From positions 1 to 64,000 of the forward strand of contig NZ_JAGQDG010000007.1 in assembly GCF_018069865.1 (NCBI RefSeq): a stretch of 64,000 bases of DNA, read 5' to 3'. The DNA is from Ideonella paludis. GTDB taxonomy: Bacteria; Pseudomonadota; Gammaproteobacteria; Burkholderiales; Burkholderiaceae_C. Positions 3,637 to 24,739 of the stretch are shown here, in pieces (position 1 is the stretch's first letter; the number at the start of each line of letters is the position of its first letter). Made by a program: the position numbers and the translations under genes. The notes under the pieces are model-generated. The model was not told the DNA's origin, did not search any database, and was given only the letters and a program-made list of their open reading frames with translations.

Positions 3637-3639
3637 CAC

Positions 3640-9800: not shown

Positions 9801-11561
9801 ACGCTCAGCGCGGTGAAGAAATCAGACAACAGCCTGGCCTGCGCGCCCGCCTTCACCGGCACCCAGACCGTGAATGTGGGCTGCAACTACCTCAACCCCA
9901 CCACCGGCACCAAGCCCTTGCTGGTGGCGGGCAGCGCCGCCACCAACACCAGCACCAACCCGTCGGGCACCTGCAACGGCAGCACGGGCACGCGCAGCCT
10001 GTTGTTTGACAGCAATGGCCAAACCACCCTGACGGTGCAGTACGACGATGTGGGCCAGCTCAGGCTGAACGCATCGGCCAGTGGCTCGGGCAGCAGCGCC
10101 GGGCTGAGCCTCAGCGGCTCCTCCAGCTTTGTGATCGCGCCGTTCAAGACCATGTCCATCACCGGCACACCCGTGGCCAGCGTGGCTGCGGGCAGCCCGT
10201 TTGCTTACACCGTCACTGCGCTCAATGCGGCCGGGCAGCCAACGCCCAACTTCGGCAAAGAGACGCCACCGGAAGGCTTTGTGACGAACTGGGTGAGAAA
10301 TCAACCCACCGGCGCCAGTGCCGTGGACGGCGTGTTCTCGACAGGCACGGCGGGCAGCGTCAGCAATGGGGCGGTGAGCTACAGCGCGGCCAGTTGGAGT
10401 GAGGTGGGCCGCCTGAGTGTCACGGCCCGCTTGGCCAGTGGCAACTACCTGGGCTCGGGCTTTACCTCGGTGGCCAGCACGGCCAGCGCATGGCAATGTG
10501 CGGTGGAGGGCGGCACCTGTACCGTACCCGCCGGCACCACGGCTGCGGTGTCCTTTGATGCAGGCGGCGCCAACCTGTTCTTCAAGCACGGCCAGTCCGG
10601 CAATGTGCCTTGCACAGCGGCCTACTTCGGCGACCCCAAGCCGGGCGCCAGCAAGAGCTGCTGGATCCAGATTGAGTCCGGCCACTATGCTTCGCAAACG
10701 GGAGCCTTGAGCTTCCAGCCCCACCACTTTGATGTGACGACGGCGGCCGCCTGTGGCAGCTTCAGCTATGCGGCCCAGCCCTTCACCACCACCGTGACGG
10801 CCCGCAATGCGCAGGGCGCGGTGACCCGCAACTACGATGGCAGCGCGGGCACCAGCCCCAACTTTGCCAAGACCGTGAACCTGAGCTTGGCCAGTGCCAA
10901 TGCCACCGGAAGCTTGACGGGCAGCGTGGCGGCGACCTCGTTCCTGGCGGGTGTAGGGGCAGACATGAGCACCTTCAGCTTCACCAACAAGCTGACGCCC
11001 GAGCAAACCATCAGCCTGCGGGCCACCGACACGGACGGCGTCAGCTCCAGCACTTTTGCCGAGGGCAGCATGGTGCTGCGCAGCGGCCGTTTGGTATTGA
11101 GCAATGCCTTTGGCAGCGAGAAGAGCCCGCTGCAGGTTCCGATACAGCTGCAGTACTGGAGCGGCAAGAGTTGGGTGCTGAACAACGCCGACACCTGCAC
11201 GGTGATCTCCCCCGCCTCGGTCGTGCGGGCGCAGACCCTGAACCACAACAACACCACGGCGACCTGGAGCAGCGCCATCAGCAGCGTGAGCCTGACGGGC
11301 GGCAGCGGCTTCATCACCCTGGGCGCACCCAGCCCAGCCGGCACCGGCAGTGTGGACTTGTCCATCAACTTGGGCAGCACCATCGCCGACCTGAGCTGCC
11401 ACGCCAGCCATCCGGCCAGCACGGGCGCGGGGCTGCCTTGGTTGCGTTCACGCCAGGGCAGTTGCGCCAGCAGCTTTGACCGCGACCCAGCCGCCCGCGC
11501 GACCTTTGGCGTCTATGCACCGGAAACCAAGCGCTCGGTGCACGTGCGCGAGGTTTTCTAG
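3837..11561 (+). CDS. Giant MshQ-like protein 1: beta-helix-like repeats, PA14 and DUF6701 domains
   Basis: 2574 residues, exported. A signal peptide ends at AQA (residue 31). Residues ~35-1150 are threonine/serine/glycine/valine-rich short turns of the type seen in bactofilins and right-handed beta-helices, organised into three long repeats plus a partial one beginning at residues 150, 473, 785 and 1090 (each starts NVSCTGTCYL). A cysteine-rich linker (VCCGSAAFGSSCSSSC) leads into a PA14 domain (~1242-1385, with QSDDGVRLWVNG and AVARLRWKRP). Residues ~1400-1840 match the giant 2 segment starting VWWSR, which may be a lectin-like domain. From ~1850 (LDHLEITAS) to the end is DUF6701, ending SVHVREVF. 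Paralogy, domain order and the pilin genes nearby support an MshQ-type surface protein; adhesin function is inferred. The next paralog starts 62 bp downstream, so the two are probably co-transcribed. Confidence 0.85.
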   Translation: MSRMIDLGRHRFWRWLGLWLALCVLAPAAQAAAYVFPGNLPSTCTGSGPSYTCTGLTLLTGDTVTINSPTPATITVNGALNATGASINSAGNTADLTLNVTGAVTLTTSSIKGNVNSVGATLNTGSSITGNLAAGAATITLAASTTVSGNVSCTGTCYLGMQGNDITIGGTTTVGHLYNWGAYRARFGGTITAHDAYIYLGYDAVVNGDVKLLATYANYGYYVYLQDRAVVNGSVSNAQSGGIYLYSSSRVTGDVSIVGAMTGGVYMYTSATVQGNVTCSACQLDLQGNNTDIGGTTNVAQIGNTGNYSSYAGAKFGSLLVAPSGNTVIASNGQILLGNTTTVKGGMSATQAITIGSGLTITGNVSSGAAVSVGASSLVTGSMTATGSVTFANSVTVTGNLTTSSSLTAGVSTAVQGNVNASGSVSLGNSSAVTGSITAGSGVSLGTGSTVGQFLNGGNGTVTLTANNSIAGNVSCTGTCYLSMQGNDISIGGTTTVGHLYNWGSYRARFGGSITAHYAYIYIGYDAIVNGDVKLLATYANYGYYVYLQDRTVVNGTVSNTQTGGIYLYASTQVGGDVAITNTAAGGTGVSSNNIYMYVGAKVLGNVACSNCQLDIQGNNIDIGGTTSVGLIGNPQNYTSYSGAKFASLLSAPSGNTVNASNGQIFLGNTTTVKGGMYASQAITVANSLSVTGSVTAGGAISLGSSALVSGSLVSSGSITTTTSTTVQGSITAAGSVSLGNSAAITGSITAGSGVSLGTASTVGQFLSGGSGTVTLTANNSIAGNVSCTGTCYLSMQGNDISIGGTTTVGYLYNWGYYRARFGGTITASYAYIYIGYNAVVNGDVNLLATYANYGYYIYIQDGSVINGSVSNSQSGGTYLYSSSQVTGNVSTVGALAGNIYMYANAKIDGNVSCTHCQLDLQGNNTEVGGTTSVALIGNTGNYSSYTGAKFGSLLVAPSGNTVNATNGQILLGSNTTVKGGMYASQAITVINSLNVTGSVTAGGAISLGSSALVSGSLVSSSSITTTTSTTVQGSITAAGAVSLGNSAAITGSITAGSGVSLGTASTVGQFLSGGNGTVTLTANNSIAGNVSCTGTCYLNMQANDISIGGTTTVGYLYNWGYYRARFGGTITASYAYIYIGYNAVVNGDVNLLATYANYGYYIYIQDGSVVNGTVSNAQSGGVYHYANSTSQCTRTLTSGPITLYTGARPGGVCCGSAAFGSSCSSSCVSNSSGLTMPVGCQPPYGLNGSYYNTTDLTGAVALSRRDGPVDFDWGAGSPGTGVNADYFSVRWTGNVLVPYTGWYTFQTQSDDGVRLWVNGQQLINNWTLHGPTDDTSTTIYLKAGTRYPIEMNMYEWGGGAVARLRWKRPLDSAFAAIPYGNGTQGLYPDTVPVVPDAGVFSGAVWWSRANSFSGSDSAAMSTWANEADSSRNLTGSTTKPVYRNTNALNINFNPVVEFTSISGTVAGAQFFSAPSFLGTSTWQQAHYVMVGYVTSTPQNNWVYFEDAVDPGVGFDGRLSFHMGWTPGIVYWDAGASGNGNRTNYTDSTLVNNPSVWMFNMDAVATTPNGGKLGIRRDGVIKANSGSPNAFTGNNSNFRVGWPGMDSTLRGVLAEGMLFLGSSMSNAQAAQLETYLGLKYGSTLGGNGATTSSYQDSAATTTWAAASGFHHNIAGIGRDDKLLLDQRISRSVNTGQQITATSKATMPDGSSTVSAQDGAQLADRSFVIWGDNGLTSTSTVNIAAGGLAGRSRSMRLWRLQQTGTAAAQWTVCIPDAMLPSSFLTGNLADLQLNASTASDLSASPVSVVMSAGNCPGSGVGVTTSVPGRVATLSAAQLASLGSVSYFSVTRRLLDHLEITASSGNGVTCAPTTYTIKACADATCTSLYTGGVSGTLTLTGSGLTVNFPAGAGFTIPNGSSQVTVTAQVTTPGTATVGATGLSITPGNSQSVFCGLGASAAAANSCAMTVADAGFLLNVPHSRAGYSQTVTLSAVKKSDNSLACAPAFTGTQTVNVGCNYLNPTTGTKPLLVAGSAATNTSTNPSGTCNGSTGTRSLLFDSNGQTTLTVQYDDVGQLRLNASASGSGSSAGLSLSGSSSFVIAPFKTMSITGTPVASVAAGSPFAYTVTALNAAGQPTPNFGKETPPEGFVTNWVRNQPTGASAVDGVFSTGTAGSVSNGAVSYSAASWSEVGRLSVTARLASGNYLGSGFTSVASTASAWQCAVEGGTCTVPAGTTAAVSFDAGGANLFFKHGQSGNVPCTAAYFGDPKPGASKSCWIQIESGHYASQTGALSFQPHHFDVTTAAACGSFSYAAQPFTTTVTARNAQGAVTRNYDGSAGTSPNFAKTVNLSLASANATGSLTGSVAATSFLAGVGADMSTFSFTNKLTPEQTISLRATDTDGVSSSTFAEGSMVLRSGRLVLSNAFGSEKSPLQVPIQLQYWSGKSWVLNNADTCTVISPASVVRAQTLNHNNTTATWSSAISSVSLTGGSGFITLGAPSPAGTGSVDLSINLGSTIADLSCHASHPASTGAGLPWLRSRQGSCASSFDRDPAARATFGVYAPETKRSVHVREVF
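4284..7400 (+). repeat. Three and a partial ~0.9 kb in-frame tandem repeats within giant gene 1
   Basis: Units begin at 4284, 5253, 6189 and 7104, giving periods of 969, 936 and 915 bp, all multiples of three; the fourth unit stops near 7400. Units 2 and 3 are almost identical at DNA level over long stretches (compare 5930-6440 with 6840-7350), implying recent duplication or gene conversion. Each unit encodes the same order: NVSCTGTCYL, YNWG.YRARFGG, YIY.GY, LLATYANYGYY, SNAQSGG, C..CQLD.QGNN, then a run of short beta-turn repeats. Confidence 0.9.
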
Positions 11562-11623: not shown

Positions 11624-14600
11624 ATGGCAGGGGCTGGCACTCCGCTGGCTCTTGGCACGGTTTGCTCCTTCGAGACGCCCTTGACACACGCATTTGGCTC
11701 GGTTTTGCGATGGCTGACCTTTTGGGTGGCCTTGATCGCGTTTGCACCCTCGGTGCAGGCGGCCGCCTATGTGTTCCCGGGCAGTTTGCCGTCGACCTGC
11801 ACTGGCGCGGGGCCGAGCTACACCTGTACGGGCCTCACCCTGTTGAGTGGTGACACCGTCACCATCAACAGCCCCGTGCCGGCCACCATCACGGTCAACG
11901 GTGCGCTCAATGCCACCGGCGCCAGCATCAACAGCACCGGCAACACCGCCGACCTGACCTTGAACGTCACCGGCGCGGTGACACTGACGAGCAGCAGCAT
12001 CAAGGGCAACGTCAACTCGGTGGGGGCGACGCTGAACACCGGCTCGTCCATCTCGGGCAACTTGGCGGCAGGCGCTGGCACCATCACGATGGGAGCCAGC
12101 ACCACCATCAGCGGCAATGTGAGCTGCACCACCACCTGCTACTTGAACATGTCGGCCAACGACATCACCATCGGTGGCACCACCACGGTGGGTTACCTCT
12201 ACAACTGGGGCTATTACCGCGCCCGCTTTGGCGGCACCATCACCGCGAGCTATGCCTATGTCTATCTGGGCTATGACGCTGCGGTGACGGGCAATATCCA
12301 GCTCAATGCCACCCATGCTTCGACCTACGGGGTGTTCTTGGGTGACCGCAGCACGGTCAGCGGCAACATCAGTTCGGCCCAGAGCGGCGGCATTTATCTC
12401 TACGGCAGCAGCCAAGTCAGCGGCAACGTCAGCATCACCAATGCGACGGCGGGCGGCACCGGGGCCTCCAACAACATCTACATGTACGCCTCTGCCAAGG
12501 TGATTGGCAATGTGAGCTGCAGCAACTGCCAGCTTGACCTGCAGGGCAACAACACCGATGTCGGCGGAACCGCCAGCGTGGGCTCGATAGGCAACACCAG
12601 TAACTACAGCAGCTACACCGGCGCCAAGTTCGGCAGTCTGCTGGTGTCGCCCAGTGGCAATACGGTCAACGCCAGCAACGGCCAAATCTTGCTGAGCGGC
12701 AGCACGACGGTCAAAGGCGGGATGGCGGCTTCGCAGGCCATCACTGCGGGCACGAGCCTGAATGTGGCGGGCAACCTGACGGCGGGCAGCTCGATTTCCG
12801 TCGGTGCGTCAGCCCTCATCACTGGAGGGGTGAGCGCCGGATCTGGGGTGACCTTGGGCGCCAGCAGCAGCGTGGCTCAAGACCTCAATGGTGGCAATGG
12901 CACCATCACGCTCGGCGCCAGCACCACCATCAGTGGCAATGTGAGCTGTACCGGCACCTGCTACTTGAACATGTCGGCCAACGACATCACCATCGGTGGC
13001 ACCACCACGGTGGGTTACCTCTACAACTGGGGCTACTACCGGGCGCGCTTTGGCGGCACCATCACCGCGAGCTATGCCTATGTCTATCTGGGCTACGACG
13101 CCGCGGTGACAGGCAACATCCAGCTCAATGCCACCCATGCTTCGACCTACGGGGTGTTCCTGGGTGACCGCAGCACGGTCAGCGGCAACATCAGTTCGGC
13201 CCAGAGCGGCGGCATTTATCTCTACGGCAGCAGCCAAGTCAGCGGCAACGTCAGCATCACCAATGCGACAGCGGGCGGCACCGGGGCCTCCAACAACATC
13301 TACATGTACGCCTCTGCCAAGGTGCTGGGCAATGTGAGTTGCAGCAACTGCCAGCTGGACCTGCAGGGCAACAACACCGATGTGGGCGGCACCACCAGTG
13401 TGGGCTCGATAGGCAACACCAACACCTACAGCAGCTACACCGGCGCCAAGTTCGGCAGTCTGCTGGTGTCGCCCAGTGGCAATACGGTCAACGCCGGCAA
13501 CGGCCAAATCTTGCTGGGCGGCAGCACGACGGTCAAAGGCGGGATGGCGGCTTCGCAGGGCATCACTGCGGGTACGAGCCTGAATGTGGCGGGCAACCTG
13601 ACGGCGGGCAGCTCGATCTCCGTCGGTACGTCACTGAGCGTCACCGGCAATGTCTCTGCCGGCGGCAGCCTCACCACAGGCACCTCAGCCCTCATCACGG
13701 GGGGGGTGACCGCCGGATCTGGGGTGACCTTGGGCGCCAGCAGCAGCGTGACTCAAGACCTCAATGGTGGCAATGGCACCATCACGCTCGGCGCGAGCAC
13801 CACCATCAGCGGCAATGTGAGCTGCACCACCACTTGCTACTTGAACATGTCGGCCAACGACATCACCATCGGTGGCACCACCACGGTGGGCTACCTCTAC
13901 AACTGGGGCTATTACCGCGCCCGCTTTGGCGGCACCATCACCGCGAGCTATGCCTATGTCTATCTGGGCTATGACGCCGCGGTGACGGGCAACATCCAGC
14001 TCAATGCCACCCATGCTTCGACCTACGGGGTGTACCTGGGTGATCGCAGCACGGTCAGCGGCAACATCAGTTCGGCCCAGAGCGGCGGCATTTATCTCTA
14101 CGGCAGCAGCCAGGTCAGCGGCAACGTCAGCATCACCAATGCGACGGCGGGCGGCACCGGGGCCTCCAACAACATCTACATGCACGCCGCGGCCAAGGTG
14201 CTGGGCAATGTGAGTTGCAGCGCGTGCCAATTGGACCTACAGGGCAGTAACACCGATGTGGGGGGCACCACCAGTGTGGGCTCGATTGGCAACACCAACA
14301 CCTACAGCGGCTTCGTCGGGGCCAAGTTTGGCAGCTTGTTGGCCTCGCCCAGTGGCAACACCGTCAATGCGGTGAGTGGTCAGATTCTTCTGGGCGGAAG
14401 CACCACGGTCAAAGGCGGAGTTTATGCGTCGCAAAATGTCACCGTCCAAGCCGGCTTGAGTGTCACGGGCAGCGTGACGGCCGGTGCGGCGATCAACCTG
14501 GGGGCCACAGCCACGATCAATGGCGACCTCGTGTCTTCCAGTTCAATCACGACCGGCAACACCACCTCGGTGCTGGGCAGCGTGACGGCAGCCACCAGCG

Positions 14601-17600
14601 TGAACATGGGCACGACGGCTCTGATCACCGGTGGCATTTTGGCCGGCTCGGGCGTGACGCTGGGGGCCAGCAGCAGCGTGGGGCAGAGCCTGAGTGGCGG
14701 CAACGGCACCATCACGCTCAGTGCCAGCACGACCATCGGCGGCAATGTCAGTTGCAACAGCACCTGCTACTTGAACATGTCGGCCAACGACATCACCATC
14801 GGTGGCACCACCACGGTAGGCTACCTCTACAACTGGGCCTACTACCGGGCGAGGTTTGGTGGCACCATCACGGCGAGCTATGCCTACATCTACATCGGCT
14901 ATGACGCGGTGGTCAATGGGGATGTGAAGCTCAACGCGACCTACGCATCGAGCTATGGCGTCTATATCGGCGACCGCAGTGTCGTGACCGGTACCGTCAG
15001 CACGGCCCAGACCGGTGGCATTCAGATGTACACCAGCAGCACGGCGCAGTGTGCGCGAACGCTGACCACGGGCACCATTACCCTGTCCTCCAACGCGCGC
15101 CCCGCTGGCGTGTGCTGCAACAGCGCTGGCTTTGGTTCTTCGTGCAGCAGCAGTTGCGTCAGCAACAGCTCAGGCCTCACCATGCCCTCGGGCTGCCGAG
15201 CCCAAGAGGCGTTCTTGGGCGAGGTGGCCCGCTACCAGTTTGAAGAATCGTCCTGGAGCACGGGAGGCTCGGTCCTGGATAGCAGTGGCTACGAGCGCCA
15301 TGGCACCATCACCGGCAGCCCCACTCAGTCCAAGGTGGCGCCACCCACCTGCGGCAGCACCTATGGCGTGTTCGCTGCGGGTCAGCGCATCAAAGTGCCC
15401 TATGCCGCGGCCTTGAACCCGCAGAGCTTCAGCGTGGCGCACTGGGTCCGCGTAGATGGCGGGACGGGAACCTTTCGGGGCTCTCTGACCTCCCGAACCG
15501 GCGCAGGCACCGTCACCGGCTTTAACCTTTACGCCGCCAACAACAATATGTGGCAGTTCTGGACCGGCGCGGGCACATTCAGCCAGGTGCAGGGTTCGGC
15601 GGTGTCGCTCGGGACTTGGACCCATGTGGTGGCCACTTATCAAGTCACCAGCGGGCCGGATGCCAGCGGGGTCTATACCGGGACTGGCACGATCTACATC
15701 AACGGCGCAGCTGCGGGCTCTAACACCAGCATGCGCTACAAGCCCAACACCACCCAGCCCTTGGTCATCGGCAGCGGTGGCAATGAAGACGTGGACTTCT
15801 CGCAGTATCCCTTTGCGGGTGCCCTGGACGATGTGCGGGTGTTTGACTATGCGCTTCCGGCCTCGGAGGTCTTGGCCCTGAGTACCAGCACCACTTGCCC
15901 TGGGGGACTGCCGGGCAGTGTGTGGTGGTCCAGGTCAAACAGCCTGAGCCAAGCAGACGACACGGCCGTTGGCACGTGGGCCAATGAGTCCAATGCCGCG
16001 AAGCCGCTGACCGCCAGCTCGGTGGCCCCTAAATTCCGCAACAGCAATGCGCTGAACATCAACTTCAACCCCGTGGTGGAATTCACGTCCGCCACGGCCA
16101 GTGACGCCGCAGCGCAGTACTTCCGGGCCAATAGCTTGCTGGGCAGCAAGACGTGGGCGCGGGCGCACATGGTGTTTGTGGGCTATCCCAACAGCAACAG
16201 TCAGATGAACTTTCTCTACCGAGAAAGCACGGTTTTGCCTGCTGGATATGCCGACGCTCGCTTGTCTATCCACGTCCCTTGGCTCAGCAACCTGTATTGG
16301 GACTCGGGCAACTGCTGCACCACCAACCGCACTTCCGTCGCTGACACCACCATCGTGAACACGCCTTCGGTGTTCTTGTTCACCATGGACTCCACGGCTG
16401 CAACACCCGGCGGTGTCAAGCAGAGCATTCGCCGAGATGGGCGTGTTCTGACGTCTATCGCTTCCCCTATCGCCTTCACCGGCAATGCTTCGGAGTTTCG
16501 AGTCGGCTTTGGGGGCGGTGCGCAAACGACCTTTCAAGGGGTGATGTCCGAGGGCGTGCTGTTCTTGGGGCAAACGATGACCGATGGCTTGGCCACCCAA
16601 CTGGAGAGCTATTTGGGCCTGAAGTACGGTGTGACTTTGGGCGGCAATGGGGCTGCCAGCACGAGCTACACCCACAGTGGTGGAGGCACCACCTGGGCCG
16701 CGGGCACCGGCTACCACCACAATGTGGTGGGCCTGGGCCGCGACGACGCCACCAAGCTCAACCAGTTGATTTCACGCAGCAGCAATTCGGGTGGGCAGAT
16801 CACGCTCACCACGGGCGCCAGCATGCCTTCCAGCGCCACAGCCATTGCGCCCACCACCGGCGTGGCCTTCAGCGCCAACCGCTCCTTTGTGGTGGTGGGC
16901 GATAACGGCCAGACCGCCACCAGCACCACCACGATTGCCACGGGCCCGCAAGCCGGCCGCACGCGCAGCGCGCGGGTGTGGCGCGCGCAAGTCACCGGCA
17001 CGGTGCCGACCCAGGTGGCGGTGTGCATTCCGGAGAGCATGATCCCCGCCGAGTTCTTGGGTGGCAATGCGGCCACCGACCTCTGGCTCACCACGGCCAG
17101 CAGCGCTGATTTCGCCACCGGTGCGGCCTCCGTCACCATGAGCTCAGCCAGTTGCGTGGCCAGTGGTGTGGGCGTGAGCACCAGCGCGGCGGGTCGTTTG
17201 GCAGTGCTGCCCGCGGCCACTTTGCAGGCCTGGGGCGGCGTGGGCTACTTCACGGTCAGCCGTCGCTTGCTCGACCACCTGGAGATCACCGCCAGCTCCA
17301 GCAGCGGCGTGACCTGCTCGCCCACGAGCTACACCATCAAGGCCTGTGCTGACGCAGCCTGCACCTCGCTCTACACCGGTGGGGTCAGTGGCACGCTCAC
17401 GCTGTCAGGCAGTGGGCTGACAGTCAACTTCCCCGCCGGTGCGGGTTTCACCATTCCGAGTGGCAGCTCGCAAGTCACGGTCACTGCGCAGGTGACCACG
17501 CCGGGCACGGCCACGGTGGGCGTCACGGGCTTGTCCATCACGCCGGGCAATAGCCAGGGCGTGTTCTGTGGCTTCGCCACGCCGGCCGCAGCGGCCAACA

Positions 17601-19441
17601 GCTGCGCCATGACCGTGGCCGATGCGGGGCTGCTGTTTGATGTGCCTCACCACCGCAGCGGTGTGAGCCAAACCATCACGCTCAGCGCCGTCAAGAAGGC
17701 CGACAACAGCCTGGCCTGTAAGCCGGCGTTCACGGGGGCCAAGAGTGTTAACTTTAAATGTGAGTATTTGAACCCTGGCAGTGGCACGCGGCCGGTGCTG
17801 GTCAGTGGCGTGGGCTTGAACGCTGCGGCCGTGACGACCAGCGCCTGCGATGCAAGCGGCGCCAGCCGCACACTCACCTTTGATGCCAACGGCCAGGCCA
17901 CCACCACCGTGCAATACCTGGATGTTGGCCAGGTCAAGCTCAGTGCGAGCTGGGTGGGCAGCAGCGGCAGCGAGAGCGGGCTGAGCCTGCGTGGGGACGA
18001 CAACTTCATCGCAGCCCCCATGACCTTCACGGTTGTGCCGGCCTCCACGTCGCAAGTGGCCGGCACGGCCTTTGGTGTGACGGTGACCGCCCTCAATGCA
18101 GCCGGCGCGGCCGCGCCAAACTTTGGCTTGGAGTCCACGCCCGAGCGCCCAGCCTTGGTCTTGCACCGCGCCAAGCCTTCAGGCACGGCGGCGCAGGACG
18201 GTGTGTTCAACACAGGCACGGCCAGTGCGGCGAGCAATGGTGTGGTGAGCTTCTCGGGGCTGAGCTGGTCGGAGGTGGGGCGGGCAGAGGTCTTGGCCAA
18301 GCTCGACAGCGGCAGCTATCTGGGCAGCGGCTTCTCGGCCATGAAGACCACCGGCGGCTGGGCCTATTGCGCCAGCCAAGGCGGCACCTGCAACCTACCG
18401 GCTGGGGTGACGGCGACCGTGTCCTTTGACGCCGGCGGTGCGTCCATCAACTACAAGCATGGCGTGTCGGGCTCCATCAGCTGTGTGGCGGCGTCCTTCC
18501 CGGCCGACCCGGCCCCCAGCGCGGGCAAGACGTGCTGGTACACCGTGGAGACAGGGGCCCACACCAGCGACACCGGCACCTTGATCTTCAAGCCGCATCA
18601 CTTTGATGTCACCACCGCTGCGGCCTGCGGCAGCTTCAGCTACGCGGCCCAGCCCTTCACCACCACGGTGACGGCCCGCAACGCTCAGGGCGATGTCACC
18701 CGCAACTACGACGGCAGCAGCGGCACCAGCCCCAGCTTTGCCAAGACGGTAAACCTGAGCTTGGCCAGCGCCAATGCGACGGGCACGCTCAGCGGCAGCG
18801 TGGCGCCCGGCTCGTTTGTGGCCGGCGTCGGAGCGGACGCGGTGAGCTTCAGCTTCCTCAACAAGCTGACGCCCGAGCAGACCATCAGCCTGCGAGCCAC
18901 CGACACAGACGGCGTCAGCTCCAGCACTTTTGCCGAGGGCAGCATGGTGCTGCGCAGCGGCCGTTTGGTGTTGAGCAATGCCTTTGGCAGTGAAAAGGCC
19001 CCGCTGCAGATTCCCATGCAACTGCAGTACTGGAGCGGCAAGAGCTGGGTGCTCAATAGCGCCGACACCTGCACCGTGATCTCCCCCGCTTCGGTGGTGC
19101 GGGCCCGGACCCTGGCTCACAACAACGCACCTGCCACCTGGACCAGCACCATCAGCAGCGTCAGCCTCTTCGGCGGCAGCGGCTACATCACGCTGGGCGC
19201 ACCCAGCGGCGGCGGCACTGGCAGTGTGGATCTCGCCGTGAACCTGGGCGTGGGGGTGAACACGGCTGATGAGAGCTGCCTTCCCGCCCACGGCAACGCC
19301 ACGGGCGCGGGCTTGCCCTGGCTGCGCTCACGCCAGGGCAGTTGCGCCAGCAGCTATGACCGCGACCCGTCGGCCCGAGGCACCTTTGGCGTCTATGCAC
19401 CGGAAACCAGACGCTCGGTGCATGTGCGCGAGGTCTTTTGA
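11624..19441 (+). CDS. Giant MshQ-like protein 2: beta-helix-like repeats, LamG and DUF6701 domains
   Basis: 2605 residues from the ATG at 11624. The hydrophobic signal segment ends at VQA around residue 47, and the mature protein begins AAYVFPG as in giant 1; a shorter start inside the leader is possible. Repeat units start at residues 165, 439, 731 and 1041 (NVSCTTTCYL or near). After the same cysteine-rich linker (VCCNSAGFGSSCSSSC) comes a LamG/concanavalin-like domain (~1200-1420, VARYQFEESS to DDVRVFDYALP) where giant 1 has PA14. The VWWSR segment (~1434) and DUF6701 (~1883 to end, SVHVREVF) follow. Same-strand spacing of 62 bp to giant 1 suggests an operon. Its role is likely an MSHA-associated surface or pilus-tip protein, by analogy with MshQ. 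Confidence 0.85.
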   Translation: MAGAGTPLALGTVCSFETPLTHAFGSVLRWLTFWVALIAFAPSVQAAAYVFPGSLPSTCTGAGPSYTCTGLTLLSGDTVTINSPVPATITVNGALNATGASINSTGNTADLTLNVTGAVTLTSSSIKGNVNSVGATLNTGSSISGNLAAGAGTITMGASTTISGNVSCTTTCYLNMSANDITIGGTTTVGYLYNWGYYRARFGGTITASYAYVYLGYDAAVTGNIQLNATHASTYGVFLGDRSTVSGNISSAQSGGIYLYGSSQVSGNVSITNATAGGTGASNNIYMYASAKVIGNVSCSNCQLDLQGNNTDVGGTASVGSIGNTSNYSSYTGAKFGSLLVSPSGNTVNASNGQILLSGSTTVKGGMAASQAITAGTSLNVAGNLTAGSSISVGASALITGGVSAGSGVTLGASSSVAQDLNGGNGTITLGASTTISGNVSCTGTCYLNMSANDITIGGTTTVGYLYNWGYYRARFGGTITASYAYVYLGYDAAVTGNIQLNATHASTYGVFLGDRSTVSGNISSAQSGGIYLYGSSQVSGNVSITNATAGGTGASNNIYMYASAKVLGNVSCSNCQLDLQGNNTDVGGTTSVGSIGNTNTYSSYTGAKFGSLLVSPSGNTVNAGNGQILLGGSTTVKGGMAASQGITAGTSLNVAGNLTAGSSISVGTSLSVTGNVSAGGSLTTGTSALITGGVTAGSGVTLGASSSVTQDLNGGNGTITLGASTTISGNVSCTTTCYLNMSANDITIGGTTTVGYLYNWGYYRARFGGTITASYAYVYLGYDAAVTGNIQLNATHASTYGVYLGDRSTVSGNISSAQSGGIYLYGSSQVSGNVSITNATAGGTGASNNIYMHAAAKVLGNVSCSACQLDLQGSNTDVGGTTSVGSIGNTNTYSGFVGAKFGSLLASPSGNTVNAVSGQILLGGSTTVKGGVYASQNVTVQAGLSVTGSVTAGAAINLGATATINGDLVSSSSITTGNTTSVLGSVTAATSVNMGTTALITGGILAGSGVTLGASSSVGQSLSGGNGTITLSASTTIGGNVSCNSTCYLNMSANDITIGGTTTVGYLYNWAYYRARFGGTITASYAYIYIGYDAVVNGDVKLNATYASSYGVYIGDRSVVTGTVSTAQTGGIQMYTSSTAQCARTLTTGTITLSSNARPAGVCCNSAGFGSSCSSSCVSNSSGLTMPSGCRAQEAFLGEVARYQFEESSWSTGGSVLDSSGYERHGTITGSPTQSKVAPPTCGSTYGVFAAGQRIKVPYAAALNPQSFSVAHWVRVDGGTGTFRGSLTSRTGAGTVTGFNLYAANNNMWQFWTGAGTFSQVQGSAVSLGTWTHVVATYQVTSGPDASGVYTGTGTIYINGAAAGSNTSMRYKPNTTQPLVIGSGGNEDVDFSQYPFAGALDDVRVFDYALPASEVLALSTSTTCPGGLPGSVWWSRSNSLSQADDTAVGTWANESNAAKPLTASSVAPKFRNSNALNINFNPVVEFTSATASDAAAQYFRANSLLGSKTWARAHMVFVGYPNSNSQMNFLYRESTVLPAGYADARLSIHVPWLSNLYWDSGNCCTTNRTSVADTTIVNTPSVFLFTMDSTAATPGGVKQSIRRDGRVLTSIASPIAFTGNASEFRVGFGGGAQTTFQGVMSEGVLFLGQTMTDGLATQLESYLGLKYGVTLGGNGAASTSYTHSGGGTTWAAGTGYHHNVVGLGRDDATKLNQLISRSSNSGGQITLTTGASMPSSATAIAPTTGVAFSANRSFVVVGDNGQTATSTTTIATGPQAGRTRSARVWRAQVTGTVPTQVAVCIPESMIPAEFLGGNAATDLWLTTASSADFATGAASVTMSSASCVASGVGVSTSAAGRLAVLPAATLQAWGGVGYFTVSRRLLDHLEITASSSSGVTCSPTSYTIKACADAACTSLYTGGVSGTLTLSGSGLTVNFPAGAGFTIPSGSSQVTVTAQVTTPGTATVGVTGLSITPGNSQGVFCGFATPAAAANSCAMTVADAGLLFDVPHHRSGVSQTITLSAVKKADNSLACKPAFTGAKSVNFKCEYLNPGSGTRPVLVSGVGLNAAAVTTSACDASGASRTLTFDANGQATTTVQYLDVGQVKLSASWVGSSGSESGLSLRGDDNFIAAPMTFTVVPASTSQVAGTAFGVTVTALNAAGAAAPNFGLESTPERPALVLHRAKPSGTAAQDGVFNTGTASAASNGVVSFSGLSWSEVGRAEVLAKLDSGSYLGSGFSAMKTTGGWAYCASQGGTCNLPAGVTATVSFDAGGASINYKHGVSGSISCVAASFPADPAPSAGKTCWYTVETGAHTSDTGTLIFKPHHFDVTTAAACGSFSYAAQPFTTTVTARNAQGDVTRNYDGSSGTSPSFAKTVNLSLASANATGTLSGSVAPGSFVAGVGADAVSFSFLNKLTPEQTISLRATDTDGVSSSTFAEGSMVLRSGRLVLSNAFGSEKAPLQIPMQLQYWSGKSWVLNSADTCTVISPASVVRARTLAHNNAPATWTSTISSVSLFGGSGYITLGAPSGGGTGSVDLAVNLGVGVNTADESCLPAHGNATGAGLPWLRSRQGSCASSYDRDPSARGTFGVYAPETRRSVHVREVF
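12116..15050 (+). repeat. Three and a partial ~0.8-0.9 kb in-frame tandem repeats within giant gene 2
   Basis: Units begin at 12116, 12938, 13814 and 14744 (periods 822, 876 and 930 bp, all multiples of three). The last unit is partial, ending near 15050. Segments such as 12240-12500, 13070-13320 and 13930-14180 are nearly identical. The period grows by 54 bp each time, from extra short beta-turn repeats in the unit's tail. Motifs correspond one to one with those of giant gene 1. Confidence 0.9.
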
Positions 19442-19445
19442 CCGC

Positions 19446-20615
19446 TCAACTCAAGGCGCAGTCGCTCAGCCAGAAGACAACGTGCGGCGGGTTCTCCGGC
19501 AGGGCGCGCAAGTGCTCGGCCGCGGCGGCGAAGATCCCCACCGCATCGTCCGCCAACTGAGCCTGGGTGTGCTCGGGCAGTGGCAGGCGTGCCAAGCGGC
19601 GATGGCGGTCGTCAACCGTGATGATGGCGTCGACCATGCCCGTCAGCGCGGTACTGCCCATCTGCGAGGTCACGCTGCCGTGCGCCGCTTCGCCGTCTTG
19701 CGGCCAGCGGCACAGCGTCGGCAAGGCTTTGAGCTGATGGCTGTCTTCTACCAGCACGGCTTGCACACAGTGCCCAAACACGCTCTTGAGGCCCCGAACC
19801 AAGGCCGCAGCGCCCAGGCAATTGCTGCTGGCCACAAACACCAACACCGGTTGGCGCAGCGTGGGCTGGATGTCGTGGCTGAAGAGCTGTTGCTTCAGTT
19901 CTAGCGCTGCGCAGGCATAGCCTTGGAACGCTGCAAAAGATTCGGCGGTGTCCAGCCACCATGTGCTGCTGTTGAAGCCGCCGGCTTGCCGCTTGAGCTG
20001 TGCCAGCGCGCTGCTCGAGAGCGGCTCGCTGACCTGGGTGCCGCTGTCTTGCAGGGCCTCCAGCAGCGCTTGGGGGGTGGCGCCCTGCAAGATCACTCGG
20101 CTGGGCAGACCCAGGGCTTGGCAGATGCGGGCTGCAGCCAGCGCGTCGCGGCCGGGGCCATGGATCACCAACTGGTGTTCGCTGAGCCAGGTGCGGGTGC
20201 CAGGCGTGTCCACGCCCATCAGCGGCTGGCCAACATGGGCCATGCCTTCGGCAATCATGGCATCGCTGATCAGGCTCAGCACGGCATAGCTCATGCCGCG
20301 GTCCGAGAGGCTTTGCGACAGGGGCAACTCGTCATCGCACTTCAGCCATGCGCGGGTCAGGCCGGCGGGCAGCAGCGCTTGCGCCGGGTGATGGTTCAGG
20401 CTGCGCAGCGGTGAGGCGAGGGGGCCGGGATAAGGCGCGGCATAGGGGAGCAGGAGGGCGCTGTCTTTGGCCAGAGCGCGCCAAGCCCGCACGGTGAGGC
20501 TCAGGTCGTCCACATGCAAGGCAAAGCGCGCCAAAGCGCTGGCTTGGGCATGGGTGGGCGGCAGAGGGAACCAGGTGGTGGGGGCATCAACCACCATTTC
20601 AGCAACGTCAATCAT
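19446..20615 (-). CDS. D-serine dehydratase (DsdA)-like protein lacking the PLP lysine; probable pseudoenzyme
   Basis: 389 residues from ATG 20615; a GTG six codons upstream is less likely. From memory of E. coli DsdA, landmarks run collinearly: TTWF near the N-terminus; LKCDDELPLSQSLSDRG matching the LKKDSHLPISGSIKARG region; PVLVFV...GLKSVFG matching the phosphate-loop strand and helix; HVVFW at the C-terminus. The residues that make the enzyme are gone: the Schiff-base lysine of SIKARG is serine (about residue 104), the STGNLG substrate loop is HGPGRD, the GGGPGG phosphate loop is SSNCLGAA, and TGGG near the end is LSDC. It overlaps the upstream gene by 8 bp (ATGATTGA), so the two are translationally coupled. 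Function is unknown; a binding or structural role is more likely than catalysis. Confidence 0.72.
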   Translation of the reverse strand: MIDVAEMVVDAPTTWFPLPPTHAQASALARFALHVDDLSLTVRAWRALAKDSALLLPYAAPYPGPLASPLRSLNHHPAQALLPAGLTRAWLKCDDELPLSQSLSDRGMSYAVLSLISDAMIAEGMAHVGQPLMGVDTPGTRTWLSEHQLVIHGPGRDALAAARICQALGLPSRVILQGATPQALLEALQDSGTQVSEPLSSSALAQLKRQAGGFNSSTWWLDTAESFAAFQGYACAALELKQQLFSHDIQPTLRQPVLVFVASSNCLGAAALVRGLKSVFGHCVQAVLVEDSHQLKALPTLCRWPQDGEAAHGSVTSQMGSTALTGMVDAIITVDDRHRRLARLPLPEHTQAQLADDAVGIFAAAAEHLRALPENPPHVVFWLSDCALS

Positions 20616-21897
20616 GGTGAGAACCTTGTGCACTGGTCGCCAGCGAGGCGGCTTGCGGCGACCAGGGAGTGGAGGTGGCGGTGGCCCGGCGGGCGCTGGC
20701 GCGGGTGTCCATCAGCGTGCGCAGCAGCAGCGTCGCGCCAAAGGCCAGATGGGGCGTGGCGCTGTGGTGGCCGAGGTTGAGCAATAGGTTACGGGTCGAG
20801 GTGCGGCTCACCAGCGGCAGGCCATCCGGTGCCACCCAGCTGGTTTGCACCAGAGCCTGGTCGGCCACCAGAGACCAGGCCGGACCAAAGTAGCGCGTGA
20901 CGGCAGCACTCAGGTGCGCCACCTCTTGGGTCAGAGGGCCCTCGGGCTCTCCGAGCCAGAGCGGCCCCTGGGCCCACAAACGCTGGCCTTGGCGCATGAG
21001 GCGCACACCGCTGGGCTGGTCATGGAGGCAGAGCGGTGGCCCGGCGGTCTCGGGCAATTGGATGTGCAAGCCGACCTGGGTCATCGGCGCCAGGTCAGGC
21101 TTCAGGCCCAAGGCCTTCAGCAGCGGCTGGGCGGCGGGCCAAGAGGTGGCAATGACCCAGTCGCAGTCGATCTCATCGGCTTGGTTCAAGGTGCCGCGCA
21201 AGGTCACGCTATGGAGGTGCTGGCCCGTGTGGACCGCACCATCGACCGTTTGGTCGTAAACAAAGCGCACGCCTTCCAAGGCGAGTTGTTGCCGCAGGTC
21301 AGCCAGCACAGCGGCGCTGTCGGCCAGCATCAGGCCTTCCGACTTCAGCGCGCAAGCAGTCTGGCCCCAAGCGGCGTCGTGAGCCGGCAAGGTGGCGGCT
21401 TCTGCGCTCAGCGGGGCCAATGTGGGCCGCGTGCCCAGGTGCCACATGGGGCCGCGGTGCTGGTGTTGTTGGGCGGGGCCTGCATGGCGGTGGACGCTGA
21501 GCATGGCCAGGGCTTGCGGCGTGGGCAGTCCGTGTTCACGGCCTTGCAACTCGTCCAGCGCCAGTTTGCTGCGGCGGGCCATGGCCAGCGCGCGCAAGGC
21601 CTGGCTGCGCGCGCCGCTGCCGCAGCGTTGGCCCAAGCAGCGCAGCAACCAGCCGAGGTGGCCCAGGCCATCAGGCCCGAGGCGCAAGTCGCCTTGGTCC
21701 CGCAACAGGGCACTCAGGGTGGCAAGCGCCCCTTGTGGCGCGCCCCAAGGGCCGGGGTCCGTGAAGACCATGGGCGGTGCGGCCTGGTGGGTGGCTTCAG
21801 TGCCATGCACCAACACGCACACCTCATGCCCTTGTCGGCGCATCTGCTGGGCGCTGAGCAAGCCCGCCAGGTTGGCGCCTAAGATGAGGATTCGCAT
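20608..21897 (-). CDS. DadA-like FAD-dependent oxidoreductase with degenerate FAD-binding motif
   Basis: 429 residues. It begins MRILILGANLAGLLSA, where D-amino acid dehydrogenases have GxGxxG; the middle glycine is asparagine, and the acidic residue expected at the end of the second strand is histidine (VCVLVHG). The C-terminus APDGLPLVSRTSTRNLLLN aligns with the conserved DadA PDG.P.VG...NL.LN.GHG segment, but the glycine-rich GHGTLGW is replaced by GHHSATP. Family assignment to the DadA/DAO group is therefore fairly secure and activity doubtful. It is the first gene of a minus-strand pair with the DsdA-like pseudoenzyme, between the giant surface proteins and the pilin genes. The association of two eroded D-amino-acid enzymes is unusual. 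Confidence 0.7.
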   Translation of the reverse strand: MRILILGANLAGLLSAQQMRRQGHEVCVLVHGTEATHQAAPPMVFTDPGPWGAPQGALATLSALLRDQGDLRLGPDGLGHLGWLLRCLGQRCGSGARSQALRALAMARRSKLALDELQGREHGLPTPQALAMLSVHRHAGPAQQHQHRGPMWHLGTRPTLAPLSAEAATLPAHDAAWGQTACALKSEGLMLADSAAVLADLRQQLALEGVRFVYDQTVDGAVHTGQHLHSVTLRGTLNQADEIDCDWVIATSWPAAQPLLKALGLKPDLAPMTQVGLHIQLPETAGPPLCLHDQPSGVRLMRQGQRLWAQGPLWLGEPEGPLTQEVAHLSAAVTRYFGPAWSLVADQALVQTSWVAPDGLPLVSRTSTRNLLLNLGHHSATPHLAFGATLLLRTLMDTRASARRATATSTPWSPQAASLATSAQGSHHD

Positions 21898-22405
21898 ACT
21901 TCCGTATCCTGTGTTTTATCGATGACGTCAGCCTCAGAGAAGCCGAGCCATCACTTATGTGGCTGAATGAGATCGGCCGCCAACGCTCAAGCCGGGCGTA
22001 TCGGCAGCAGTAAAGCGGGAGGGGGTGTGGCGCTAGCGCCCGCGAGGGGGGCGCTGGAGGACTTTGTCCTGCTGGCAGGGGGGGCGCTCAGTGCGGTGGG
22101 CAGTGCTCATGGTGGGTGTGACAAAACAAGGATGCCCCTGATGGCCGTTCATGCCGCAGACCATCAGCAGAGGTGAGCTGCCTTCGGCCTGCGGTGTGGC
22201 GCTGTTCTGAGTGTCATCTTGGCATATAACGTTGCGCATAAGCAACCTTAAATCTCAAAAATGCGCGTTTATTTGGGGCTGCAGACATCAGGGCTTTCAC
22301 GGGCTTGTCAGGGATCAAAGGGGCGTAGACCCGCCTTTTTGCGGTTTAGCTCTGCAGGCCGCGCGGCAACATGTGCTGTGCGCAGTCTTGGAGGACTGCG
22401 CCTTA
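21898..22405. other. 508-bp divergent intergenic region upstream of the pilin operon
   Basis: The stretch separates the minus-strand DadA-like gene from the pilin operon. It contains a 12-bp perfect palindrome GGCGCTAGCGCC (22029-22040), a TATAAC that could be a -10 (22225-22230), and a small hairpin GTTGC-N6-GCAAC just after it. About 175 bp of probable leader precede the first pilin start. Short open frames in both directions have no recognisable product. No riboswitch class was matched with confidence. Confidence 0.45.
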
Positions 22406-22936
22406 ATGAATACCATGCCGCTTGCCCCCACCTCTTCTTCAAGGCGCTGCCCCACCCCGGGGCGGGTGCGAGGCTTTACGCTGATGGAGATGATCGTGGT
22501 GATCGTGATCTCCGGCGCTTTGGCGGCGGTGGTGTTGCCCAAGTTCGATGTGGCCCTTCAGGCAGGCGACCGGGCCTATGCGGACACCGTCAAGGCGGGT
22601 CTGCGCTACGCCCGATCGATCGCAGTCGGGCATCGCCGATTGGTGTGTGCCGAGTTCGACGCCAGCTCGCGGCTGATCATCAAGATCGCAGCGACCAACC
22701 CGGCGACGGTCTGCACCGTGGGGATTGATGGCAATGAGGTGTTTGCCGCCCCGCCCGCCGGGGTGACAGTCAGCTGGTCCTCGGGCGGGACTGGCATGGT
22801 GTTCTTCCAGCCCAACGGTCGAGTCACCAGTGACGGGGCTGGCGCGACAGGCATCAACAGAACCCTCACCATCTCCGGTAAGTCGGTCCCTGCGGAAGCT
22901 CCCATCAACCTGGAATGGTTCGGGAGGGTGGAATGA
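22406..22936 (+). CDS. mshC: MshC-like (GspH-type) prepilin
   Basis: 176 residues from ATG 22406, preceded by GGAGG at 22390-22394; the frame is open further upstream but that part does not look like protein. A leader of about 26 residues ends GRVRG, then FTLMEMIVVIVISGALAAVVLPKF, a type III signal sequence cleaved by prepilin peptidase before Phe with Glu at +5. The remainder has two cysteines and a GspH-like ending. It is the first gene of a four-gene operon (stop overlaps the next start by 4 bp) in the order of the Vibrio mshCDOP genes. Likely a minor pilin of an MSHA-type pilus; the exact orthology is less certain than for MshO. Confidence 0.75.
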   Translation: MNTMPLAPTSSSRRCPTPGRVRGFTLMEMIVVIVISGALAAVVLPKFDVALQAGDRAYADTVKAGLRYARSIAVGHRRLVCAEFDASSRLIIKIAATNPATVCTVGIDGNEVFAAPPAGVTVSWSSGGTGMVFFQPNGRVTSDGAGATGINRTLTISGKSVPAEAPINLEWFGRVE

Positions 22937-23397
22937 GGCACGGACTGCGCCGATCCGCCCTGGGCATGACCATGATTGAGTTGGTCGTCGCCATTGTGAT
23001 CTTGGGCGTGGGCATCTCCGGGATGATGCTGGCCTTCTCGACCGTGATGGGGGCCTCGTCCAACCCCATCGTGATGCGGCAAATGCAGGCCATTGCCGAT
23101 GAAATGGTGGCAGAGATTGCGCTCAAGCCCTATGTGCCTGTGGCAAACAGCCCGGCGGTGGGATGTGCACGGGTCAACTTCAATGACGTCACCGATTACA
23201 ACGGCTACACCACCACCGACCAAATCTGCACCATTGACGGCAACCCTATCCCGTCGCTGAATGGTTATTCGGTCAACGTCGCTATCCAAGAAGGCCCCTG
23301 GTATTCGGTGCCCGAGAACAAGCGCATCATGGTGACGGTCAGCAATGCTTCCCAATCCTATGTGCTGTATCGGCGCCGTACGGGGTACGCGCAATGA
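22933..23397 (+). CDS. mshD: MshD-like minor prepilin
   Basis: 154 residues from the ATG at 22933, which overlaps the upstream stop (ATGA). The leader RHGLRRSALG precedes MTMIELVVAIVILGVGISGM, a type IV prepilin signal with Glu at +5. The following stretch SSNPIVMRQMQAIADEMVAEIALKPY matches the MshD pattern of a helix that includes ADPM..QA..IAE.ML.EI. The C-terminal part ends in a basic YRRRTGYAQ. Translationally coupled to the genes on both sides. Confidence 0.78.
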   Translation: MRHGLRRSALGMTMIELVVAIVILGVGISGMMLAFSTVMGASSNPIVMRQMQAIADEMVAEIALKPYVPVANSPAVGCARVNFNDVTDYNGYTTTDQICTIDGNPIPSLNGYSVNVAIQEGPWYSVPENKRIMVTVSNASQSYVLYRRRTGYAQ

Positions 23398-24275
23398 AGC
23401 CCAGCAGGCGCTATCGTCAACGAACGGCTGGCTTCACCTTGATCGAGCTGATTGTGGTGATGGTGATCACCGTGATCATGTCGGTGTCCTTGGTCGTGTT
23501 TTTTCGCCCGGCGATTGATGGCTACTTTCTGTCGCAGACGCGTGATGATTTGATGCAGGCGGCTGACAACGCCATCATGCACATGGCCAACGATGTGCGC
23601 GCGGCCGTTCCCAATTCGGTGCGAACCCCTAACAACCAGTGCTTCGAGTTAGTGCCGACGGTGGCCGGTGGCCGCTATCGGGCGGGGCCTGACACCGTGA
23701 ATGACGCCGCGTGCACGGGCGCAGGGTGCTCTGCCTGGGTGGATACCAGCGCGGCCACCACCACCTTCGATGTCCTGCAACACAGCGGTCGGGACGCCCA
23801 GGTAGGGGATTGGGTGGTGATCAACAACCAGAATGCCAATGATGTTCATGCGGGCAGCAACCGCAGCCAGATCACGGCGGTCAGCACACCCGCAGCGGCC
23901 TTGGGGGTGAAGCGCTTCACCATCAACAGCCTTCAGGTGTCGCCCGGCTATGACGGCGCTCGCTACCAAGTGGTGAGCAACAACGAGCAATCGGTGACCT
24001 ACAGTTGCTTGGGCGCAGATGGCACCCTGGATGCCAAGGGCAATGGCAAAGGGGAGCTGCGGCGCAAGATCAACACTTTTGCCACTGCGGTGCCCACGAG
24101 TTGCCCCTTGGACGGCTACATCGTGACTCGCAACGTGCTGCGCTGTAACTTCGTTTATGACCCCAACCAAGGCGCGACCCAACAAAGCGGCTTTGTGTGG
24201 ATGGAGATTGAAGTTGCCCGCGCAGGGGAAAAGGCCAACCTCAGCATGGGGGCGCATGTCTCCAACGTACCATGA
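23394..24275 (+). CDS. mshO: MshO-like minor prepilin
   Basis: 293 residues, ATG overlapping the mshD-like stop by 4 bp. Short basic leader, then G/FTLIELIVVMVITVIMS. The segment DGYFLSQTRDDLMQAADNAIMHMANDVRAAVPNSVR has the spacing typical of MshO (GYF, alternating D/A, R.A.PNSVR). The rest of the protein is a long periplasmic domain with paired cysteines (CFEL, ACTGAGC, SCLG, TSCPL, LRCNF). It likely belongs to the minor pilin complex priming MSHA-type pilus assembly. Confidence 0.85.
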   Translation: MKPSRRYRQRTAGFTLIELIVVMVITVIMSVSLVVFFRPAIDGYFLSQTRDDLMQAADNAIMHMANDVRAAVPNSVRTPNNQCFELVPTVAGGRYRAGPDTVNDAACTGAGCSAWVDTSAATTTFDVLQHSGRDAQVGDWVVINNQNANDVHAGSNRSQITAVSTPAAALGVKRFTINSLQVSPGYDGARYQVVSNNEQSVTYSCLGADGTLDAKGNGKGELRRKINTFATAVPTSCPLDGYIVTRNVLRCNFVYDPNQGATQQSGFVWMEIEVARAGEKANLSMGAHVSNVP

Positions 24276-24739
24276 CTGACCGTCTCGTTCGTGCAGCCCG
24301 GCGACGCCCGCGACGCGGCTTTGGTGTGATTGCCGCCATGGTGGTGTTGGTGATGATGGCGGTGCTGTCGGCCGCCATCATTCGCATCGGCATGAGCCAG
24401 CAAGTCACCTCAGCCCAAGCCATCAATGGCTCCAAGCTCTCAGCGGCAGCGGCGTCTGGCGTGGAGTATGGCCTGTACCTTGCGCTCAAGGGCTCATGGA
24501 CGACCTGCGTGAATCAAACTTTCTCTACCCAAATGAGCCTCTTCAACGGCTGGGTCACCACCACCTGCAATTCGGTGGTCTACAACGAAGGTGAAACCGC
24601 GCCCGGTGTGCCCCGCACAGTGCGGGTCTTCACCATCACGGCGACGGCTTGCACCTCGTCGGTGAGCTGCCCCGACCCAGCGGCGGCCACCCAAAGCGGC
24701 TATGTCGAGCGCGTGCGCCAGGCTGTGGTGGTGAACTGA
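24272..24739 (+). CDS. mshP: MshP-like pilus biogenesis protein
   Basis: 155 residues, ATG overlapping the mshO-like stop (ATGA). A basic N-terminus is followed by GFGVIAAMVVLVMMAVLSAAIIRIG, a prepilin-like helix lacking the usual Glu at +5 as in MshP/PilX-type proteins. Then SAAAASGVEYGLYLAL resembles the MshP helix motif A..A.R.G.EWG. Four cysteines are present in the C-terminal half. Last gene of the pilin operon; in Vibrio mshQ would follow, whereas here the mshQ-like genes lie upstream. Confidence 0.75.
   Translation: MTDRLVRAARRRPRRGFGVIAAMVVLVMMAVLSAAIIRIGMSQQVTSAQAINGSKLSAAAASGVEYGLYLALKGSWTTCVNQTFSTQMSLFNGWVTTTCNSVVYNEGETAPGVPRTVRVFTITATACTSSVSCPDPAAATQSGYVERVRQAVVVN

Follow-up and report, generated by a model that had tools for sequence, protein, structure and literature searches.

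A DsdA-derived and a DadA-derived putative pseudoenzyme, side by side in a pilus-type gene cluster of Ideonella

Overlapping genes within a pilus-type gene cluster

The stretch of Ideonella paludis DNA analysed here (the window, 64,000 nt) carries two overlapping genes, pDsdA and pDadA, that lie antisense between a large DUF6701 gene and a run of pseudopilin-like genes (table 1). pDadA is the upstream gene of the two. The gene order is kept in the one other genome in which we found the pair, 'Ideonella sp. MAG2' (a MAG, PTEU01000001.1; hereafter G004), where the overlap is 4 nt and the pair is again antisense between a DUF6701 gene and FimT-/PilV-like genes. A tblastn search with proteins of the window identified these FimT- and PilV-like genes, for which Pfam gave nothing. 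The labels MshQ and FimT-, PilV-, PilW- and PilX-like are our own putative assignments, as is the naming of MSHA-type pilus clusters after MshQ and minor pseudopilins. The first-pass annotation had described pDsdA without its partner and without the pilus-type cluster that the pair interrupts.

Table 1. Features at the locus (window coordinates).
Feature	Position	Strand	Remarks	Evidence
MshQ-like protein, DUF6701 near the C-terminal end	11624..19441	+	2605 aa; convergent with pDsdA, stop codons 4 nt apart	
pDsdA, putative DsdA-derived pseudoenzyme	19446..20615	-	389 aa, stop included in coordinates	ORF, Pfam, NCBIfam, PDB search, alignment, ortholog, codon model
Codon 104, former Schiff-base Lys site, now Ser (SLSDRG)	20304..20306	-	counted from the ATG at 20615	
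pDadA, DadA-derived flavoprotein relative with broken FAD motifs	20608..21897	-	429 aa; 8-nt overlap with the start of pDsdA	NCBIfam, Pfam, alignment, codon model
Divergent intergenic region, pDadA/FimT-like gene	21898..22405	.	FimT-like start predicted; partly alignable with L012 (G004)	
24-nt element TTGGCATATAACGTTGYGCATAAG	22219..22242	+	in both genomes, one position (Y) differing	
FimT-like minor pseudopilin, N-methylation motif	22406..22936	+	ATG start predicted; the listed ORF starts at 22211	
Three ORFs, PilV-, PilW- and PilX-like	22915..24739	+	N_methyl motif in the first two; third without Pfam match	

DUF6701 was detected at E ≤ 1e-15 in 8 of the 16 genus genomes. Four other congeners (G011, G014, G002 and G015; loci L087-L090) have DUF6701 followed directly by a FimT-like gene with no pair between them. 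G003 and G005 have their pseudopilin genes ahead of DUF6701, which is followed there by a gene lacking any NCBIfam match. Outside the genus, the DUF6701-FimT order was seen in 6 of 30 loci (L116, L118, L124, L125, L126 and L131), which represent 30 genomes drawn from the 54 of 299 with a DUF6701 match; no DsdA- or DadA-like gene lay within the 1.5-kb flanks at any of the 30. Presence across genera, by which we would have recognised a component of MSHA-type pili, was not seen for the pair, found in 2 of 16 genus genomes and at none of the 30 other-genus loci (1.5-kb flanks). The simplest reading is that the pair was apparently gained by the common ancestor of the two sister species. Its GC contents (0.665 and 0.688) fall inside the span of 0.583-0.738 seen among the measured window genes. 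Mobile-element ends around the pair were considered and rejected, as the repeats there are only short or imperfect matches.

The 24-nt element in the divergent region occurred in 5 of 93 loci, all from the window's genome and G004, and its first 18 bases have no second copy in the window at up to three mismatches. Reading it as a sigma-54 site was dropped, its spacing being one base off what we take to be the consensus.

Several other features were observed in passing. Two giant DUF6701 ORFs stand in tandem in the window, at 3837-11561 and 11624-19441 (2574 and 2605 aa); the former has bactofilin and PA14 domains too. Positions 6-1283 hold another DUF6701 ORF, and a GGDEF-EAL gene occupies 1291-3639 (-). 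A NiFe hydrogenase large-subunit-like gene at 53121-54980 scored 840.6 bits, below the 1101-bit cut-off of its best family. At the G004 locus (L012, 6567-7038), the PilW-like match breaks off at 95 residues, and 7 nt further along the final 60 residues of the PilX-like protein appear in a different frame; the junction looks as if a deletion removed the parts between.

That the pair is a passenger in this cluster, with a role unrelated to pili, is a serious possibility. Its antisense orientation is in keeping with this, and ordinary members of both families are also adjacent elsewhere in the genus: in G003 (L003, 1-2751) an ordinary FAD oxidoreductase gene and a canonical DsdA gene lie next to each other in the same orientation. 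Against it, both species have the pair at this position, next to fast-evolving pilus-type genes, an argument that carries little weight with two sister species. The G003 genes were rejected as the source of the pair. In comparisons with the G003 FAD protein, the best E-value of the window pDadA was 1.7, while that of G004 matched over only 27 residues (E 2e-4), making the G003 genes an analogue at most.

Family membership and loss of cofactor motifs

The frame of pDsdA comprises 389 codons and a stop, with zero internal stops, as the first-pass annotation had stated in calling it intact. An alternative GTG start 18 nt upstream would give 395 aa; the alignment with the G004 ortholog begins at the ATG. 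A profile search against PLP families, which that annotation had proposed as a check, placed pDsdA in the superfamily: it scored 47.3 bits with Pfam PALP (PF00291; cut-off 35). D-serine ammonia-lyase was the best NCBIfam family by a wide margin, although pDsdA stayed below the cut-offs of both equivalog models (NF002823/TIGR02035), with 80.6 bits (E 1e-22) where 246 are required and 67.9 bits where 368.25 are, and by score does not belong with catalytic DsdA. The runner-up family reached only 16.9 bits, and no other family passed its cut-off in Pfam or NCBIfam. The top three PDB sequences were D-serine dehydratases of E. coli and Salmonella (3SS7 best; phmmer E 1.6e-7, about 1e-11 with a two-row profile). 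At 389 aa, pDsdA is shorter than the solved DsdA chains (442-448 aa). With hhalign, residues 11-338 aligned to six canonical DsdAs (27% identity, E 7.9e-21). The earlier claim of collinearity with DsdA from TTWF to the C-terminus holds for this part, while the last 50 residues could be aligned only in the multiple alignment, with deletions.

For pDadA, the NCBIfam D-amino acid dehydrogenase model (NF001933) matched along residues 1-405 with 86.7 bits, far below its cut-off of 383, so that pDadA cannot be counted as a catalytic DadA, whereas Pfam DAO scored above cut-off (42.9 versus 27.9 bits). Residues 1-402 aligned to four canonical DadAs with hhalign (E 2.6e-15), and no PDB entry matched the pDadA profile at E ≤ 0.01. 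A PADLOC search for defence genes gave no match for pDsdA and a single 16.1-bit match for pDadA.

AlphaFold2 produced poor models of both proteins: the mean pLDDT was 45.2 for pDsdA, modelled from two rows, and 42.0 for pDadA, modelled from three. Foldseek with the pDsdA model returned DsdA first (E 2.4e-12, but TM 0.32). With the pDadA model, the first match was a protein called Orf1 (E 7e-8, TM 0.32), and later matches were mostly amine and amino-acid oxidases (iminodiacetate, sarcosine, glycine and D-amino acid oxidase). Because Foldseek also scores sequence, these results support the folds weakly and are silent on the pockets. An unrelated fold as best structural match, which would have spoken against the first-pass reading of pDsdA, was not seen; even with the poor model DsdA came out best, in agreement with the sequence searches.

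The cofactor motifs themselves are lost. Compared with 26 aligned canonical DsdAs, pDsdA has SLSDRG in place of SIKARG, so that the Lys present in all 26 rows is S104; STGNLG has become (H/Y)GPGRD, the glycine-rich GVGG(G/A)P a segment containing SNCL, and TGG has become SDC. We take the SIKARG Lys to be the Schiff-base residue, and these motifs to be PLP contacts, in DsdA and fold type II enzymes. The earlier statement that the Lys, STGNLG, the Gly-rich loop and TGG are all gone was therefore borne out, and the T-x-ADGLAV segment, which it had not listed, is deleted as well. By these five features neither ortholog can be placed among catalytic DsdAs. Around the Lys site, most of KxDxxLPxSxSxxxRG is retained, K92, D94, R106 and G107 included. 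Among 38 non-pseudo loci examined (two genes, of G013 and G025, being counted twice), the pattern S.K.RG was matched in 33; the other five are L004-L007, which read CIKARG, and L025, which is the same gene as L007, and the Lys is therefore kept in all 38.

pDadA is a second candidate pseudoenzyme. Its GxGxxG is broken in both species (GANLAG and GAPLAG, the middle Gly being replaced by Asn or Pro). Where strand 2 ends in D/E-R and the C-terminal motif is GHGTLGW in seven canonical rows, the pDadAs of both species have Val-His and G(H/Y)HSAT(P/A). We take these motifs to serve cofactor binding, as we do those of pDsdA. An ordinary DadA with intact GxGxxG is encoded elsewhere in the window's genome (C22).

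It is quite improbable that pDsdA and pDadA retain an unconventional binding of their cofactors or of related nucleotides, such as PLP held with no Schiff base or FAD held by an altered Rossmann loop, and serve to sense D-amino acids or vitamin B6. Both families are still recognised, and besides the four residues around the old Lys site of pDsdA, the loop of pDadA retains G7 and G12; the Lys, the Gly-rich loop and TGG are, however, all gone from pDsdA, and pDadA has lost both the strand-2 acid and GHGTLGW.

The replacements follow a different pattern in the two proteins. The 26 canonical DsdAs have 99 invariant columns. Both orthologs keep 34 of these, and a further 8 are kept in one of the two; at 35 the orthologs carry an identical new residue, at 11 both have a deletion, and at the last 11 their replacements differ. 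Among 135 columns invariant in seven canonical DadAs, the pDadAs keep 39 in both and 15 in one, with 47 changed alike, 32 changed differently (the GxGxxG site included) and 2 deleted. The share of columns changed differently suggests that pDadA is less frozen than pDsdA.

Identical replacements could also mean that the emptied pockets were rebuilt for other chemistry, perhaps thiol- or metal-based, without PLP or FAD. The candidate residues, fixed in both species, would be S104, D105, R156, D157, N265, C266, D385 and C386. pDsdA has the same new residue at 35 of 46 gap-free lost invariant positions, Cys 93, 165, 235, 266, 302 and 386 are common to both orthologs, and two of these, C266 and C386, stand where the former PLP motifs had Gly. 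This identity at lost sites (76%) is, however, only slightly above that of other columns (196 of 301, 65%), pDsdA matches no other Pfam or NCBIfam family above cut-off, and the model described above is too poor to read a pocket geometry from. We regard new enzymes as improbable.

Ortholog, selection and age of the changes

The only pDsdA ortholog found is that of G004, with 68% identity and one gap column; the pDadA orthologs are 58% identical. Both pDsdAs carry SQSLSDRG, GPGRDALAAAR, SNCL and SDC. The ortholog thus has the same Ser and most of the other replacements, which answers, for these two sister species, the question raised in the first-pass annotation of whether the Lys-to-Ser change is fixed, and rules out a local mutation or sequencing error as the cause of the Lys loss.

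The gene for pDsdA is present in 2 of the 16 genus genomes, the window's own and G004. Five congeners (G001, G003, G006, G009 and G013) encode canonical DsdAs with 26-29% identity to pDsdA, and nine of the 16 gave no match to the pDsdA query at E ≤ 0.001, an absence less sure in G002 and G012 because both are less than 90% complete. No canonical DsdA was found in the window's own genome by the query that did detect those of the five congeners. The pDadA profile matched better than E 1e-17 only in the window's genome and G004 within the genus. In wider genome contigs no further pDsdA ortholog was found with the single protein, and the alignment query, which also matched ordinary DsdAs in other genera, recovered only the G004 record; since the single-protein query had missed that record, this search is not exhaustive. 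Among 399 order-level genomes, pDsdA was found in none but the window's own at E ≤ 1e-32, and among 399 family-level genomes the same held for pDadA at E ≤ 1e-25; G004 lay outside both draws, and in these as in the other-genus searches up to four candidates were scored per genome. Viral contigs contained no DsdA and one distant DadA. In plasmids, 46 records matched; every one was below 60% identity, and no single place in them reached 80% query coverage; among the best 10 of the 46, identities were 22-29% and most were annotated as D-serine ammonia-lyase.

Two observations stand apart from the pair. The viral DadA-like gene (L093, 1480-2673, IMG/VR) lies between two ORFs that presumably encode ribonucleotide reductase subunits. 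The G004 PEP carboxylase (L108) matches only residues 2-723 of 958 and has a 776-codon open frame, a truncation or an assembly error.

Over those residues 2-723, PEP carboxylase identifies G004 as the nearest congener of the window's genome (95% identity versus 63-84% for the other 14). The changes shared by the two pDsdAs therefore most likely predate the split of the two sister species, as far as two tips can tell.

A pairwise codon model gave an omega of 0.113 for pDsdA (dN 0.226, dS 2.0) and 0.148 for pDadA, with dS near 2 meaning that the comparison is saturated; omega = 1 was rejected for both (2dlnL 163.7 and 141.7). The dN/dS comparison proposed in the first-pass annotation thus shows purifying selection. 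Neighbouring genes of the same two loci had omegas of 0.226 (PilV-like) and 0.085 (FimT-like), and PEP carboxylase 0.027 (dS 0.91). As the omegas of the pair are 4-5 times the PEP carboxylase value, constraint is moderate: selection on pDsdA is similar in strength to that on its pilus-type neighbours and far weaker than that on a core enzyme. In the DsdA tree, the branch from the pair to the canonical proteins measures about 10 changes per column (6.21 + 3.79 across the midpoint root), with tips of 0.36 and 0.54. Such a very long stem with short tips is as expected from early change followed by constraint. The placement of the pair among DsdAs is unsettled in this tree, where long branches meet.

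Slow decay of an obsolete D-amino-acid operon, still open by chance, would account for the fast evolution (68% and 58% identity for pDsdA and pDadA versus 95% for PEP carboxylase), for the deletions in pDsdA, for a pair found in only 2 of 16 congeners and for the many pDadA sites changed differently (32 of 135). The orthologs, however, differ by only 1 (pDsdA) and 6 (pDadA) gap columns, share replacements, and have kept open frames in which drift would be expected to produce stops: in neutral simulations, 4% of 300 runs were stop-free at 0.2 substitutions per site (about 66% amino-acid identity), and none of 300 at either 0.5 or 1.0. On these expectations and the omega values, decay was rejected as very unlikely. 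The frame is well preserved, as had been claimed; the protein, at its 68% identity, evolves faster than a core enzyme.

Loss of catalytic residues common to orthologs under purifying selection, by which we define a pseudoenzyme, was found for pDsdA in two species. The earlier conclusion that pDsdA is a conserved pseudoenzyme and not a decaying gene is accordingly supported at the level of sequence, with 'conserved' referring to two sister species; we infer that PLP binding and catalysis have been lost.

A possible role for the pair and its relation to known systems

Taken on the sequences, both genes probably encode selected pseudoenzymes with a non-canonical role, an estimate that leaves a link to pili aside. 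Such a pair could have arisen if D-amino-acid-type enzymes encoded in one operon had come into the pilus-type cluster ahead of the two-species split. Cofactor binding and catalysis would then have disappeared from both proteins at an early stage, with a new role afterwards fixing the new sequences. The retention of the overlapping genes together suggests that their products, probably translationally coupled, meet and may form a complex. This complex would bind a ligand or a partner without turning over a substrate, and would tune the expression, assembly or activity of the neighbouring pilus. We put this forward tentatively as the most likely mechanism. Service to the pilus is suggested by gene position only, with the pair antisense to the pilus genes. 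A wider reading, in which the whole D-amino-acid operon was converted, its two genes changing jointly, into a non-catalytic pilus module of two proteins that senses a ligand or controls assembly (paired neofunctionalisation of two unrelated cofactor enzymes), seems to us rather doubtful.

If true, the joint loss of cofactor sites by two unrelated cofactor enzymes of one operon would mean that re-use as a non-catalytic module can happen to a whole operon as well as to a single gene. Annotation by family name alone (D-serine ammonia-lyase, FAD-dependent oxidoreductase) would wrongly credit these bacteria with D-amino-acid catabolism from this locus. The literature searched, which covered few subscription papers and included PMC6522883 and PMC12727527, contained no DsdA/DadA pseudoenzyme pair, and no paper was found there on DUF6701, on Ideonella sp. 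MAG2 or on D-serine dehydratase and D-amino acid dehydrogenase with type IV pili.

In position, the pair resembles parts of MSHA-type pilus clusters, being flanked by DUF6701 and FimT-like genes; at the G004 locus, T2SSF and secretin genes lie upstream of DUF6701 on its strand, as in such clusters. The MSHA-type loci of other genera differ from the window in having no DsdA- or DadA-like gene at the 30 DUF6701 loci (1.5-kb flanks). TrpB and DsdA share fold type II. The closest precedent found for the pair is TSB-like, a noncatalytic TrpB paralog (a tryptophan synthase beta pseudoenzyme) that activates the alpha subunit TrpA (PMC12727527). It is a plant protein with two essential residues changed, a known partner and assays (PMC12727527), whereas pDsdA belongs to another family, has lost its motifs wholesale and is known here from its sequence. 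What TSB-like has in common with pDsdA is its nature as a pseudoenzyme of a PLP enzyme, and it keeps a partner-binding role; because of this analogy, a partner- or ligand-binding complex appears the most likely function of the pair.
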